NCBI RefSeq assembly: GCF_019795295.1
Contig: NZ_JAIMCG010000001.1
Location: 434,001 to 498,000, forward strand
Length of the DNA: 64,000 bases
From: Cupriavidus sp. AU9028
GTDB lineage: Bacteria; Pseudomonadota; Gammaproteobacteria; Burkholderiales; Burkholderiaceae
Direction of reading: 5' to 3'
Positions 33,286-64,000 of this stretch are shown here, one piece after another. The translations under genes were made by a program, and so were the position numbers. The notes beneath the pieces were generated by a model, which was not told where the DNA came from, searched no databases, and saw only the letters and a program-made list of their open reading frames with translations. Position 1 is the first letter of the stretch, and every line of letters starts with the position of its first letter.

Positions 33286-35003
<1,718 letters not shown>

Positions 35004-60218: not shown

Positions 60219-60819
60219 GTCGCGGTGTGGGAACTGGAAATGGGTCGGAGCAGGGTCGAAGCCAATGCCAAGGATCGTTCGGGAGAGCCGTGCCGCGCAA
60301 GCGCCGATGGCACCGATCGCCGCGCTGTCGCCGCGGCATTGGTGGAAACCCCGAGGGCGGCTTTGCGACACTGCGGGCCGTTGCCCTTGCCCCGGCGATG
60401 CCGCACGGCACGCCCCTTTTCGGCCCGGCCATCGGCGCGGTGCAATTCGGCAAAACAGGCAAAAAATCCGGGAAAAACCCGCTGAAACGCGCCTTGTGCC
60501 ATTCCTCGGCACGGGTCGGAAAACGGGCCGGAATGGGCCAGTATAAAAGACCTTTTCACCCCGTGCGCATCGGGGGAGGCCGTCTGGACAGTCGCGTGCC
60601 GCCTGCTGTACACTGCGCCGGTTTGACGCGCCCCACGTCCGATCCCTCCTCGCGCCGCCGCGCGCGTTCCCCACCTGTGCGGCAGCACCGGAGCCGCGAT
60701 CACGATTACGGGTCAGCATCAGGCAGATGCCCGGCCCCGGTCTTGCCTCTGCCTGGAAGTTCATGGCTTGCTCGACGGCAAGGCCATGCGGGGTTTTCCA
60801 CTTCCAAACAGCGACGACA
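60219..60819. other. 601-nt gene-free region between the MoxR operon and cytochrome c genes
   Basis: No coding frame here looks real: the open frames are antisense or have no ribosome binding site. The stretch is expected to hold promoters for both divergent units. A candidate for the cytochromes is TGGACA - 18 nt - TACACT at 60585-60614. Nothing else recognisable was found. Confidence 0.5.
60585..60614 (+). promoter_or_regulatory. Candidate sigma-70 promoter for the cytochrome c genes
   Basis: TGGACA and TACACT with 18-nt spacing, about 205 nt upstream of the first cytochrome start. Confidence 0.35.
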
Positions 60820-61164
60820 ATGAAAAAGCTCCTCGGAATGGTGCTGGTCGCGGCCGCAACGGCCGCGCAGGCGCAGGAAGTCAAGGGCAATGTGGAGGCA
60901 GCCAGAGACAAGGTCGCGATGTGCATCGGGTGTCATGGGATTCCCGGTTACCGCGCCTCGTTTCCGGAAGTGTATGACGTACCGTTGATCGGCGGCCAGA
61001 ACGCCAGGTACATCGAGAACGCGCTGAAGGACTATCAGAAGGGCGTGCGCAAGCACCCCACGATGCGAGGCATCGCCGCGACCCTGACCGACCAGGATAT
61101 CGCCGATGTGGCGGCCTACTACGCCCAGCAGAAGCCGGGCTCCGCCAACAATCCGCAGAAGTGA
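60820..61164 (+). CDS. Small c-type cytochrome (class I), first of two
   Basis: A 114-residue secreted cytochrome. A short signal peptide ends AAQAQ near residue 17. The heme site is CIGCH (Cys35, Cys38, His39), followed by the cytochrome-c4/c553-like text YRASFPEVYDVPLIGGQNARYI and a C-terminal ALTDQDIADVAAYYAQQ-type helix (TLTDQDIADVAAYYAQQ). The axial methionine is probably in HPTMRGIAA. It likely shuttles electrons in the periplasm. A second cytochrome gene follows after 11 nt. Confidence 0.92.
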   Translation: MKKLLGMVLVAAATAAQAQEVKGNVEAARDKVAMCIGCHGIPGYRASFPEVYDVPLIGGQNARYIENALKDYQKGVRKHPTMRGIAATLTDQDIADVAAYYAQQKPGSANNPQK

Positions 61165-61175
61165 GGGACAGGGAC

Positions 61176-61589
61176 ATGACGACGCTGAACACGCTCTGCC
61201 GCGCGCCCCGCGCCTTCGTGCTCGCCGCCGCGGTGCTGGCCGCACCGGTGACCGGCGCGCAGGCTGCCGATATCGCCGCCGGCAAGGCGCTGGTGGAAAA
61301 GGCCAACTGCGCCGCCTGCCATGGCGCGGACATGAAGACGCCGATCGCACCGGAATACCCCAAGCTCGCCGGACAGCACGAGAGCTACCTGTACCACGCG
61401 CTGGTGGCCTACCAGATCAGCGGCAATCCGCAGGTGGGTCGCGCGAACGCGATCATGCAGGGCCAGGTCAACGCCAATCCGGGTATCGTCGGCAAGGACG
61501 GCAAGCCGCGACCGTTTACACGGCAGGAACTGCGCGACATGGCGGCTTATATCAGCTCGCTGCGCGGGGACCTGGTGTTGAAGAAGTAG
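61176..61589 (+). CDS. Small c-type cytochrome (class I), second of two
   Basis: A 137-residue secreted cytochrome. The signal peptide ends TGAQAAD near residue 31. The heme site is CAACH (Cys45, Cys48, His49). LAGQHESYLYHALVAYQISGNPQVGRANAIM carries the distal region with Met candidates, and LRDMAAYISSLRGDL is the closing helix. It resembles cytochrome c4/c553 halves; together the two small proteins mimic the two-domain c4. The ribosome binding site is GAGGGACAGGGAC. The gene converges on a truncated toxin gene nine bases away. Confidence 0.92.
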   Translation: MTTLNTLCRAPRAFVLAAAVLAAPVTGAQAADIAAGKALVEKANCAACHGADMKTPIAPEYPKLAGQHESYLYHALVAYQISGNPQVGRANAIMQGQVNANPGIVGKDGKPRPFTRQELRDMAAYISSLRGDLVLKK

Positions 61590-62116: not shown

Positions 62117-63196
62117 CTAGTTGCCCGACCCGCGCGCCAGCCGGCGGTCGCGAACCGCCTGGGCCAGCGTTTCCAGCACCTGCACGGAATCATCCCAGCC
62201 GAGGCAGGCGTCGGTGACCGACTGGCCGTAGGTCAGCGTTTCCACCGGTGCGCCCTGCACGTGGTCCTGCCGCCCGGCGATCAGATGCGATTCCACCATG
62301 ACGCCGATGATCCGTTCCTCGCCCGCGGCAAGCTGGCGGGCAATGTCCTGGCACACCGGGATCTGGTTCTCGTGCTTCTTGCTGCTGTTCGCGTGCGACG
62401 CATCGATCATCAGGCGCGCGGCCAGTCCCGCCTTGGCGATCGCGTCACAGGCGGCGCCAACGCTTTCCGCATCGTAGTTGGGCGCCTTGCCACCGCGCAG
62501 GATGATGTGGCAGTCCTCGTTGCCGGCGGTCGAGACGATGGCGGAGTGGCCGCCCTTGGTCACCGACAGGAAATGGTGCGGCTGCGAGGCCGCCTTGATC
62601 GCGTCGACCGCGATCTTCACGTTGCCGTCGGTGCCGTTCTTGAAGCCGACCGGGCAGGACAGTCCGGAGGCCAGTTCGCGGTGGACCTGAGATTCGGTGG
62701 TGCGCGCGCCGATCGCGCCCCAGCTGACCAGGTCCGCGATGTATTGCGGGCTGATCATGTCAAGGTACTCGGTGCCGGCAGGCAGCCCCATCTCGCTGAT
62801 GTTCAGCAGCAGCTCGCGCGCGGTGCGCAGGCCGTCGTTGATCTTGAAGCTGCCGTCCATATGCGGATCGTTGATCAGACCCTTCCACCCCACCGTCGTG
62901 CGGGGCTTTTCGAAGTAGACCCGCATCACCACTTCCAGCTCGTTGCTGAAGCGGTCGCGCTGCACCTTGAGCAGCTTGGCATATTCCAGCGCGGCGCGCG
63001 TGTCGTGGATCGAGCAGGGCCCGATGATGACGATCAGCCGGTCGTCCATGCCGTGCAGGATCCGGTGCATGGCCTGACGGGCGCCATAGATGACGTCCGA
63101 CGCCTTTTCCGACAGCGAAAACTCGCGGATCAGGTGCGCCGGCGGCAGCAGTTCCTTGAGTTCGCGGATGCGAAGGTCGTCGGTGTTCTTCAACAT
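62117..63196 (-). CDS. aroG: 3-deoxy-7-phosphoheptulonate synthase (class I DAHP synthase)
   Basis: AroG condenses phosphoenolpyruvate and erythrose 4-phosphate, the first step of the shikimate pathway. The 359-residue protein has the class I layout of AroF/G/H: LPPAHLIREFSLSEKA at the N-terminus, VIIGPCSIHDTRAALEYA with the metal Cys (near residue 61), MRVYFEKPRTTVGWKGLINDP (in pieces), GARTTESQVHRELASGLSCPVGFKNGTDG, HIILRGGKAPNYD, DASHANSSKKHENQ and VMVESHLIAGRQ. The N-terminal region responsible for feedback control in this class is present. Upstream are a leader peptide rich in Phe/Tyr, antiterminator pairing and a terminator, so transcription attenuation by Phe and/or Tyr is very likely. 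Confidence 0.97.
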   Translation of the reverse strand: MLKNTDDLRIRELKELLPPAHLIREFSLSEKASDVIYGARQAMHRILHGMDDRLIVIIGPCSIHDTRAALEYAKLLKVQRDRFSNELEVVMRVYFEKPRTTVGWKGLINDPHMDGSFKINDGLRTARELLLNISEMGLPAGTEYLDMISPQYIADLVSWGAIGARTTESQVHRELASGLSCPVGFKNGTDGNVKIAVDAIKAASQPHHFLSVTKGGHSAIVSTAGNEDCHIILRGGKAPNYDAESVGAACDAIAKAGLAARLMIDASHANSSKKHENQIPVCQDIARQLAAGEERIIGVMVESHLIAGRQDHVQGAPVETLTYGQSVTDACLGWDDSVQVLETLAQAVRDRRLARGSGN

Positions 63197-63249
63197 GATG
63201 GCTCCAGTACTTTCAGTCTTGACAGGGTGGGGTGGCGCAGCGGCGGGCG

Positions 63250-63278
63250 AAAAAAAACCGCCAGGCTGGGCTGGCGGT
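63250..63278 (-). terminator. Attenuator terminator in the aroG leader
   Basis: On the minus strand ACCGCCAG pairs with CTGGCGGT (8 bp, 6-nt loop) and is followed by eight T residues, 54 nt before the aroG start. It is the 3:4 hairpin of the attenuator. The 5' arm can alternatively pair with CTGGCGG inside the leader-peptide frame. Confidence 0.9.
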
Positions 63279-63300
63279 CTTTTGCAATCTTGGAAGGTGC

Positions 63301-63372
63301 TTACGACTGTCCCTCTCCATCCGCCAGCGGTGCGAGATCGCCAAAAAAGTAAAAGTAAAACTTGGCGGACAT
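63301..63372 (-). CDS. aroG leader peptide (Phe/Tyr-rich, 23 residues)
   Basis: A short frame with ATG start and TAA stop whose codons 5-10 are TTT TAC TTT TAC TTT TTT, giving FYFYFF, then an acidic C-terminus. It lies between a sigma-70-like promoter and the attenuator hairpin. Codons 2-4 (TCCGCCA) can pair with TGGCGGA in codons 16-18, making the 1:2 hairpin that brackets the Phe/Tyr run. The Shine-Dalgarno before the ATG is weak (ACTACCCTC), which is the main doubt about translation level. The design matches pheA/pheST-type leaders. Confidence 0.85.
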   Translation of the reverse strand: MSAKFYFYFFGDLAPLADGEGQS

Positions 63373-63477
63373 GAGGGTAGTGAGGCAGTAAGTCAGTGGC
63401 TTGAATCGATGCGCTGGAAATGCGCGCGATGCAGCGATGCTGTGAAGCGGTGTCGTGCCGCTGTTCGGCGAAGGCAA

Positions 63478-63506
63478 TTTATAGCCTGATTCCGGGGGCT
63501 TGGCAA
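63478..63506 (-). promoter_or_regulatory. Sigma-70-like promoter of aroG and its leader
   Basis: TTGCCA and TATAAA with exactly 17 nt between. Transcription would begin near 63471, about 100 nt before the leader-peptide ATG. Confidence 0.7.
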
Positions 63507-63574
63507 GCGCCTTGCACGCCACGCTGTTGCGCGATGACCGCAAGGCACCTGTGTTTTCCCCCAGATTCGCTCGC

Positions 63575-64000
63575 TCAGGCGGTGCCGCCGACCGTCATGT
63601 TCTCGATCCGCAGCGTCGGCTGGCCGACCCCCACCGGCACGCTCTGGCCTTCCTTGCCGCACACGCCGATGCCGGAGTCCAGCCGCATGTCGTTGCCGAT
63701 CATGGTGACGTCCTTCAGCGATTCCGGGCCGTTGCCCACCAGCGTCGCGCCCTTCACCGGGGCGGTGATCTTGCCGTCCTCGATCAGATAGGCTTCGCTG
63801 GCGGAGAAGACGAACTTGCCGTTGGTGATGTCCACCTGGCCGCCGCCGAAGTTGACGGCATAGAGTCCGCGCTTGACGCTGGCGATGATCTCCTGCGGGT
63901 CGCGGTCGCCGTTCAGCATGTAGGTGTTGGTCATGCGTGGCATCGGCAGCGCGGCGAAGCTCTCGCGCCGGGCGTTGCCGGTGACCGGCATCTTCATCAG
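63575..64000 (-). CDS. tldD: Metalloprotease TldD, C-terminal part (gene continues beyond the window)
   Basis: TldD with TldE (PmbA) forms a zinc-dependent peptidase that degrades unfolded peptides and matures microcins and CcdA. The 141 visible C-terminal residues include [18 protein letters not shown], the metal-site Cys/His region [37 protein letters not shown] and [21 protein letters not shown]. The frame is open to the window edge. It is upstream of the aroG leader on the same strand, 69 nt before the aroG promoter. Confidence 0.95.

Follow-up and report, generated by a model that had tools for sequence, protein, structure and literature searches.

The tldD-aroG interval

The window, as the whole 64,000-nucleotide stretch analysed is called here, carries on its minus strand a short open reading frame between tldD and aroG, followed by an intrinsic terminator whose T run ends 53 nt 5' of aroG (Table 1). 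Read on that strand, the leader, the overlapping complementary stretches, the terminator and aroG all lie where a sequence-only reading of the same DNA had placed them. That reading had also given region 4 and eight T at 63264-63250; the coordinates stand, but the T count does not, the sequence being CTGGCGGT and then seven further T.

Table 1. Features of the leader region of aroG and its neighbours, in window coordinates
Feature	Position	Strand	Remarks
-35 box TTGCCA	63501-63506	(-)	predicted; best-scoring promoter within 150 nt upstream of the leader
-10 box TATAAA	63478-63483	(-)	predicted; 17 nt from TTGCCA (63506-63501); transcription start predicted near 63471
Leader ORF MSAKFYFYFFGDLAPLADGEGQS	63301-63372	(-)	ATG at 63372, 23 codons, stop TAA 63303-63301; no Shine-Dalgarno
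Six consecutive Phe/Tyr codons	63343-63360	(-)	leader codons 5-10; proposed sensor
Region 1 TCCGCCA	63363-63369	(-)	complement of 63326-63320; lineage-specific
Region 2 CTGGCGG	63321-63327	(-)	within the leader ORF
Region 3 CCGCCAG	63271-63277	(-)	forms the antiterminator with region 2, the terminator with region 4
Region 4 CTGGCGG	63258-63264	(-)	terminator half
Eight-T run	63250-63257	(-)	completes the intrinsic terminator; read from the sequence
aroG, DAHP synthase	62117-63196	(-)	profile match
tldD, 3' end	63575-64000	(-)	profile match; upstream neighbour, outside the switch

On folding, the terminator hairpin of the window reached -18.5 kcal/mol (z -5.4), which none of 200 shuffles equalled, while the 2:3 and 1:2 stretches, folded separately, were of ordinary energy (z -1.0 and -1.1, respectively). 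A consensus scan of 63180-63580 reported neither a promoter nor a terminator; by the scanner's stated rules, both misses would follow from a TATAAA box that has no T at position 6 and from a long stem that absorbs the T run. No leader family was among the five Rfam 15 matches to 62500-64000 at E ≤ 10, nor among the three matches that reached gathering score over the whole window. Elsewhere in the window, 33439-33721 (-) matched 5_ureB_sRNA (RF02514) strongly (134 bits against a gathering score of 40), which may be mere similarity of ureB coding sequence, and two overlapping ORFs at 60727-61164 and 61161-61589 (+) have translations with CxxCH motifs that look like c-type cytochromes.

The gene behind the terminator was matched best, in a profile search, by the AroG equivalog of NCBIfam (NF006723), whose cut-off it exceeded. 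Its scores against the general aroFGH model and against two subfamily models, of which one is named for a Trp-sensitive AroH, were lower but likewise over the cut-off. Some entries among its top solved relatives are named Phe-sensitive or phenylalanine-regulated, and the closest named locus among the matches listed was AroG of Cupriavidus gilardii, with 94% identity, which marks the genome as Cupriavidus-like. TrpR and TyrR-type helix-turn-helix domains were not found in the window's own genome (94.56% complete) by a search in which the E. coli control matched, a result that fits a switch taking the place of a repressor. According to the accessible part of a comparative paper, gammaproteobacteria have retained TyrR and TrpR, which other classes lack (PMC5343134).

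Distribution and content of the leader

Six consecutive TWY codons occurred at a single site of the 4.68-Mb genome (94.56% complete), the aroG leader, and the same pattern read backwards, as a control, likewise gave one site. Five consecutive TWY codons gave nine matches, two of them within the leader run, and the backwards control gave eight. For comparison between genomes, a leader was scored when at least four of seven codons encoded F, Y or W, at least three of these being F or Y, and a terminator followed 12-115 nt on. This rule was written after the first leaders had been seen, and shuffled sequences were put through the identical rule. An aromatic-cluster leader with a terminator preceded aroG in 145 of 198 upstream regions (four paralog rows counted), compared with 4 of 594 dinucleotide shuffles; nine pairs of upstreams were identical over their last 200 nt, and after deduplication the count was 137/189. 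The rule misses some leaders, as in locus L138, which shows a plausible leader and terminator that were not scored.

Within the genus, all 30 loci had the leader, counting the window's own and drawn from 36 genus genomes searched, own included, as did 79 of the 80 named loci that formed the best 80 of a longer match list and are thus a sample of near relatives. The four paralogous DAHP synthase genes of the same genus, at about 64% identity, had none. Beyond the closest relatives, the upstreams were chosen as best matches per family and are a non-random sample. At least one leader was scored in 12 family codes (f1, f3, f4, f8, f10, f12, f13, f20, f23, f30, f43 and f49), and none in 17 others with one to four upstreams each (f5, f6, f11, f14, f15, f18, f21, f22, f25, f26, f28, f32, f38, f42, f44, f46 and f51); two small-genome members of f1, of another genus, also had none by the rule. 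The upstream set excludes f2, f9, f16, f17, f19, f24, f36, f39 and f41, although matches to the enzyme existed there, and 52 of the 250 genomes searched gave no enzyme match whatever. The leader type shared with Oxalobacteraceae suggests that f8 is that family, and the recurrence of identical leaders in named Achromobacter loci suggests that f4 is Alcaligenaceae. Two loci of the Oxalobacteraceae type with identical upstreams (L103, L118) lack the leader and terminator, and their aroG lies closely 3' of tldD.

Two families were sampled again. Among the best 30 loci of f49, 30 had the leader (one, from G280, was in the earlier sample), and among those of f4 it was present in 25 of 27 new locus ids, three of the best 30 having had earlier ids and two genomes (G088, G227) having been in the earlier sample. 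Alignment across Burkholderiales had been named beforehand as a check on the attenuator, and the conservation looked for was found, both in the main upstream set and in these later samples. Outside the order, 2 of the 40 best-scoring genomes had a leader, both of family f60, where one leader start is uncertain; one of the 40 upstreams was only 299 nt long. The f60 loci L209 (FYFWYYFPKPLAEEG) and L213 (RWYYFPKPPAEEG) show a similar leader and a CCGCC/GGCGG terminator before aroG in another order, and either horizontal transfer or a deeper origin could account for them.

The position of tldD raises a simpler account, in which the hairpin does no more than terminate tldD transcription and the F/Y frame is there by chance. 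The gene lies directly upstream in the window and was detected in 93 of the 145 leader-bearing loci, as that account would have it. In the other 52 loci, however, the leader comes with no detectable tldD (many were covered over only about 650 nt upstream), 16 have tldD and no leader, and the F/Y cluster tracks the hairpin over 12 family codes. On these 52 and 16 discordant loci, with the reservation as to upstream coverage, the leader is not tied to tldD, and the tldD-terminator account was rejected as scarcely credible.

Leaders from different families have little in common beyond the aromatic cluster (e.g., MRSQKSFFFAYFWFSHRPADGEASA, MYSRASSYFWYYFSKPQAVKG and MKFASPAFYFYFYGFLKPLAEEGTRSI). 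The longest run of F, Y and W had a median length of six among the 90 distinct leaders, 88 of which start with ATG, and W was present in 44. Codons for W had an F or Y no more than two codons away in 44 of 48 cases, against 524 of 1471 for all non-F/Y residues; His codons, at 49 of 55, stand beside the F/Y run about as often. Since His is much like Trp in this respect, proximity alone cannot single out Trp, and Trp as a proven third signal is not claimed.

Within the attenuator reading, it is possible, though rather unlikely, that Phe is chiefly sensed and that the Tyr codons are secondary. This would agree with the gene product's best fit to the AroG model, with the three of 90 distinct leaders that have Phe without Tyr, and with the aroR leader of Corynebacterium, where, in the portion of a review that was available, limitation of Phe acts and availability of Tyr does not (PMC11802643). 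Against it, 87 of the 90 distinct leaders contain both residues, and the Tyr codons in second and fourth place of the run vary at the wobble base alone. The latter was seen in 32 distinct Burkholderiaceae sequences filtered for FYFYF, in which all of the first five run codons vary in this way; the filter itself fixes the residues, which leaves the free wobble as the sole informative part. In region 2, by comparison, the wobble positions of CTG GCG were invariant in all 30 distinct PLA-containing sequences of the same set, which points to a constraint on the RNA there.

Other features of the leaders were noted in passing. In L073 (Caballeronia) and L075 (Candidatus Burkholderia) the frame differs at or just past the end of the F/Y run and regions 2-4 are preserved, which might mean that the tail of the peptide is unimportant. 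The sequence GAGAGGG after region 2 (63315-63311 (-) in the window) is almost invariant across the Burkholderiaceae alignment and, in the fold of the window, can pair with CCCTC just 5' of the leader AUG. A Shine-Dalgarno-like GGAGAGGG past region 2 was considered as a pausing site and dropped, given its varying distance to the stop codon.

Pairings and stall geometry

The sequence-only reading had proposed three alternative pairings, 1:2, 2:3 and 3:4, and covariation among 70 Burkholderiaceae sequences (alignment A1) upheld the last of these. The 3:4 stem was paired in 99.8% of cells, and 19 cells were double-changed compared with 2.7 in shuffles, none of 500 of which was as high; the pairs showing double changes numbered two, no more than in shuffles, and the excess lies in the cell count. 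The 2:3 helix, also paired in 99.8% of cells, was nearly invariant within this family and showed no compensatory change, and 1:2, paired in 95.5% of cells, the same as shuffled columns, showed no covariation.

Dinucleotide shuffles of the segment, with p values uncorrected for multiple tests, gave 2:3 at p ≤ 0.05 in 72 of the 90 distinct leaders; the 18 misses include L077, which was scored on the wrong hairpin. The 1:2 pairing reached p ≤ 0.05 in eight of the 90, all from Burkholderiaceae and the window among them (p 0.025). As first proposed, 1:2 therefore keeps shuffle support in Burkholderiaceae and has none elsewhere. Being supported in that family alone, without covariation, it is best regarded as an optional part; as a general part of the switch it finds no support in the shuffle tests or in the covariation. 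Leaders of the Oxalobacteraceae type (f8) have a displaced 2:3 helix, in which a U after GGCGG pairs with an A before CCGCC, and a U-A pair flanking GGCGG/CCGCC was found in 20 of the 86 leaders tabulated (four dropped).

Folds were then predicted with a stalled ribosome masking the RNA from the first base of its A site, assuming a leading edge of 12 nt and leaving out L075 and L077. Region 3 was free to pair back, allowing an antiterminator, when the A site held an aromatic codon in 612 of 636 cases, compared with 645 of 1371 for non-aromatic sense codons and 3 of 88 for stops. A median of 11 nt (quartiles 11-17) separates the last F/Y codon from the GGCGG core of region 2. For the window itself, all 7 bp of the 2:3 helix were predicted with codons 7-12 in the A site; the helix was lost beyond codon 12, codons 16-17 also being flagged under a looser rule. 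With codons 2-6 in the A site, Phe5 and Tyr6 included, the full helix was not the predicted fold; at codon 5, region 3 paired instead with UGGCG where the run ends, an antiterminator other than the one first proposed. When region 4 was included, the folds of the window contained the terminator at all four stall positions shown, and antitermination must for this reason be kinetic.

Ribosome-mediated transcription attenuation is the best explanation of the aroG element, with a probability of about 90%. The original reading of a Phe/Tyr attenuator is supported by the conservation of the leader and by masked folds that agree with stalling at aromatic codons. RNA polymerase would start about 98 nt 5' of the leader AUG, as predicted, and be followed by a ribosome translating the leader. 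A shortage of charged tRNA-Phe or tRNA-Tyr would hold the ribosome at codons 5-10, leaving region 2 just past its leading edge to pair with the emerging region 3; with 2:3 formed, the terminator would not form in time and aroG would be transcribed. A ribosome that has moved on to region 2 or to the stop codon would cover region 2, so that 3:4 could form and transcription end at the T run. In Burkholderiaceae, the 1:2 helix probably adds a default 'off' state when no ribosome is bound.

Leader start and relation to known attenuators

The weak Shine-Dalgarno named at the outset as the main uncertainty is better described as none in the window, where the duplex energy with the anti-Shine-Dalgarno was +1.3 kcal/mol, and the lack is widely shared, 83 of 90 distinct leaders being weaker than -4 kcal/mol. 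The median energy was -0.25 kcal/mol for leaders against -6.05 for the aroG genes (with the aroG start set by alignment), and seven of 90 leaders were at or below -4 compared with 67 of 90 aroG genes. In the later samples, 3 of 30 leaders of f49 and 11 of 25 of f4 were at or below this value, the energies in f4 seeming to come from TAGGAT, which is the proposed -10 box itself. Since there is no Shine-Dalgarno, we infer translation of the leader from its codons alone. A leader that reported ribosome initiation or translation in general, rather than aromatic amino acids, would suit both this lack and a 1:2 helix able to shut the switch on an untranslated leader, but it would leave the retention of F/Y amid a diverging peptide unexplained, and is improbable.

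The promoter predicted for the window, with its 5' UTR of about 98 nt, was also recovered in the near relatives L003 and L004; it was not the best site in most other loci of the genus, where the best-scoring site was weaker and different. The majority of the Paraburkholderia, Burkholderia and Caballeronia leaders listed are preceded by TTGTCA or TTGCCA, 17-18 nt and TATAAA, and a 5' UTR of about 30 nt is predicted for most leaders of the Burkholderia group. In ten other family codes, 18 of 29 loci had a best promoter whose -10 box ended 5-9 nt 5' of the start codon, against a mean of 1.8 and a highest value of 4 in shuffles, and the same spacing was found in 20 of 30 loci of f49 and 19 of 25 of f4 in the later samples (shuffled rates 4.8% and 4.0%). 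An extended -10 pattern, TGnTAnnnT, chosen after looking, stood 6-9 nt 5' of the start codon in 25/30 f49, 24/25 f4 and 12/29 loci of the ten other codes, and in none of 76 f1 or 21 f8 loci, with shuffled rates of 0.1-0.8%.

A start codon this close to the extended -10 predicts leader RNAs that are leaderless or nearly so in f4, f49 and the codes bearing the element; the prediction does not extend to the window's own leader. A wider proposal, which we consider somewhat more likely than not, is that one attenuator family guards the aromatic entry enzyme through much of Burkholderiales, and that its leader is for the most part translated with no Shine-Dalgarno. For several families, f4 (with Achromobacter/Bordetella-type leaders) and f49 at the least, a leaderless or nearly leaderless transcript would start at the leader AUG, with the ribosome loading at the 5' end; region 1 would then be dispensable, leaving a three-region switch. 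It would read Phe and Tyr, and possibly Trp where the cluster has Trp codons.

If this is true, the committed aromatic flux of an order that includes plant symbionts, degraders and industrial Cupriavidus is set by an RNA switch and not by TyrR/TrpR repressors of the E. coli type. The diverged leaders would provide a naturally occurring collection for testing the requirements of an attenuator, namely a terminator and an aromatic cluster that stops roughly one ribosome front short of region 2, and the predicted leaderless versions would make the reading of leaderless RNAs during transcription directly testable. For the engineering of aromatic products in Cupriavidus, removal of the terminator or the leader would be an obvious handle.

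Among the titles and abstract openings listed by a literature search, with most subscription papers outside its scope, there was no report of the aroG element in Burkholderiales. Attenuation of this gene by a mixed Phe/Tyr sensor had been considered unusual; for attenuation of a DAHP synthase gene there are precedents in Corynebacterium aroR-aroF and in the predictions for Acholeplasma uORFC-13-1 and Vibrio aroA(I-alpha-Y)-tyrA, as far as the accounts of these go. The aroR leader before aroF of C. glutamicum was reportedly the work of Neshat et al. in 2014. As that leader is established, this kind of switch was already known. What could be consulted of two papers reports a Phe-Tyr-Phe leader before this DAHP synthase gene, with ribosome stalling (PMC11802643, PMC4046766), and a title cited in the second states that the C. 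glutamicum ilvBNC leader is made without a ribosome binding site. A leader peptide containing Phe and Tyr before a DAHP synthase gene is therefore what aroR, so described, shares with the Burkholderiales leader; it belongs to another phylum, the likeness is functional and set by description, and the aromatic clusters are longer in Burkholderiales. Two further cases are predictions.

In Vibrio, aroA(I-alpha-Y), which we take to be a DAHP synthase gene, is followed by tyrA. Putative attenuators before this DAHP-synthase-led operon were taken from a database of predictions in a paper of 2005, and Table 7 and the other accessible parts of that paper do not describe the leader (PMC1173090); the same parts give a predicted attenuator for the gyrA-serC-pheA-tyrA cluster of Bordetella parapertussis, a different locus from aroG (PMC1173090). 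The uORFC-13-1 motif before aroF of Acholeplasma combines, in the excerpt available, a predicted upstream ORF with at least one Phe codon and a terminator, and the hypothesis of aroF attenuation in E. coli is mentioned there too (PMC8632094). The motif thus shares with the aroG leader a predicted upstream ORF with one or more Phe codons, a terminator and a DAHP synthase gene behind them, but it is from another phylum, has no mixed cluster and is a prediction only. For the predicted leaderless families, the nearest parallel in the accessible text is trpL of Sinorhizobium meliloti, a leaderless attenuator RNA that starts at its AUG (PMC7298713). An AUG-start transcript of this kind is predicted for several Burkholderiales families and not for the leader of the window, and, unlike the aroG leader, trpL is a Trp sensor for trpE(G) in alphaproteobacteria.

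The overall design is that of the textbook attenuators. Those of E. coli, pheL-pheA and trpL-trpE, are classically drawn as regions 1-4, and, going by partial accounts of them, the Burkholderiales leader shares their ORF with codons for the regulated amino acid, their alternative 2:3 and 3:4 pairings and their T-run terminator. It differs from them in its target, the first enzyme of the common pathway, in its mixed Phe/Tyr codons, in being mostly without a Shine-Dalgarno, and in a region 1 that is supported in one family only.
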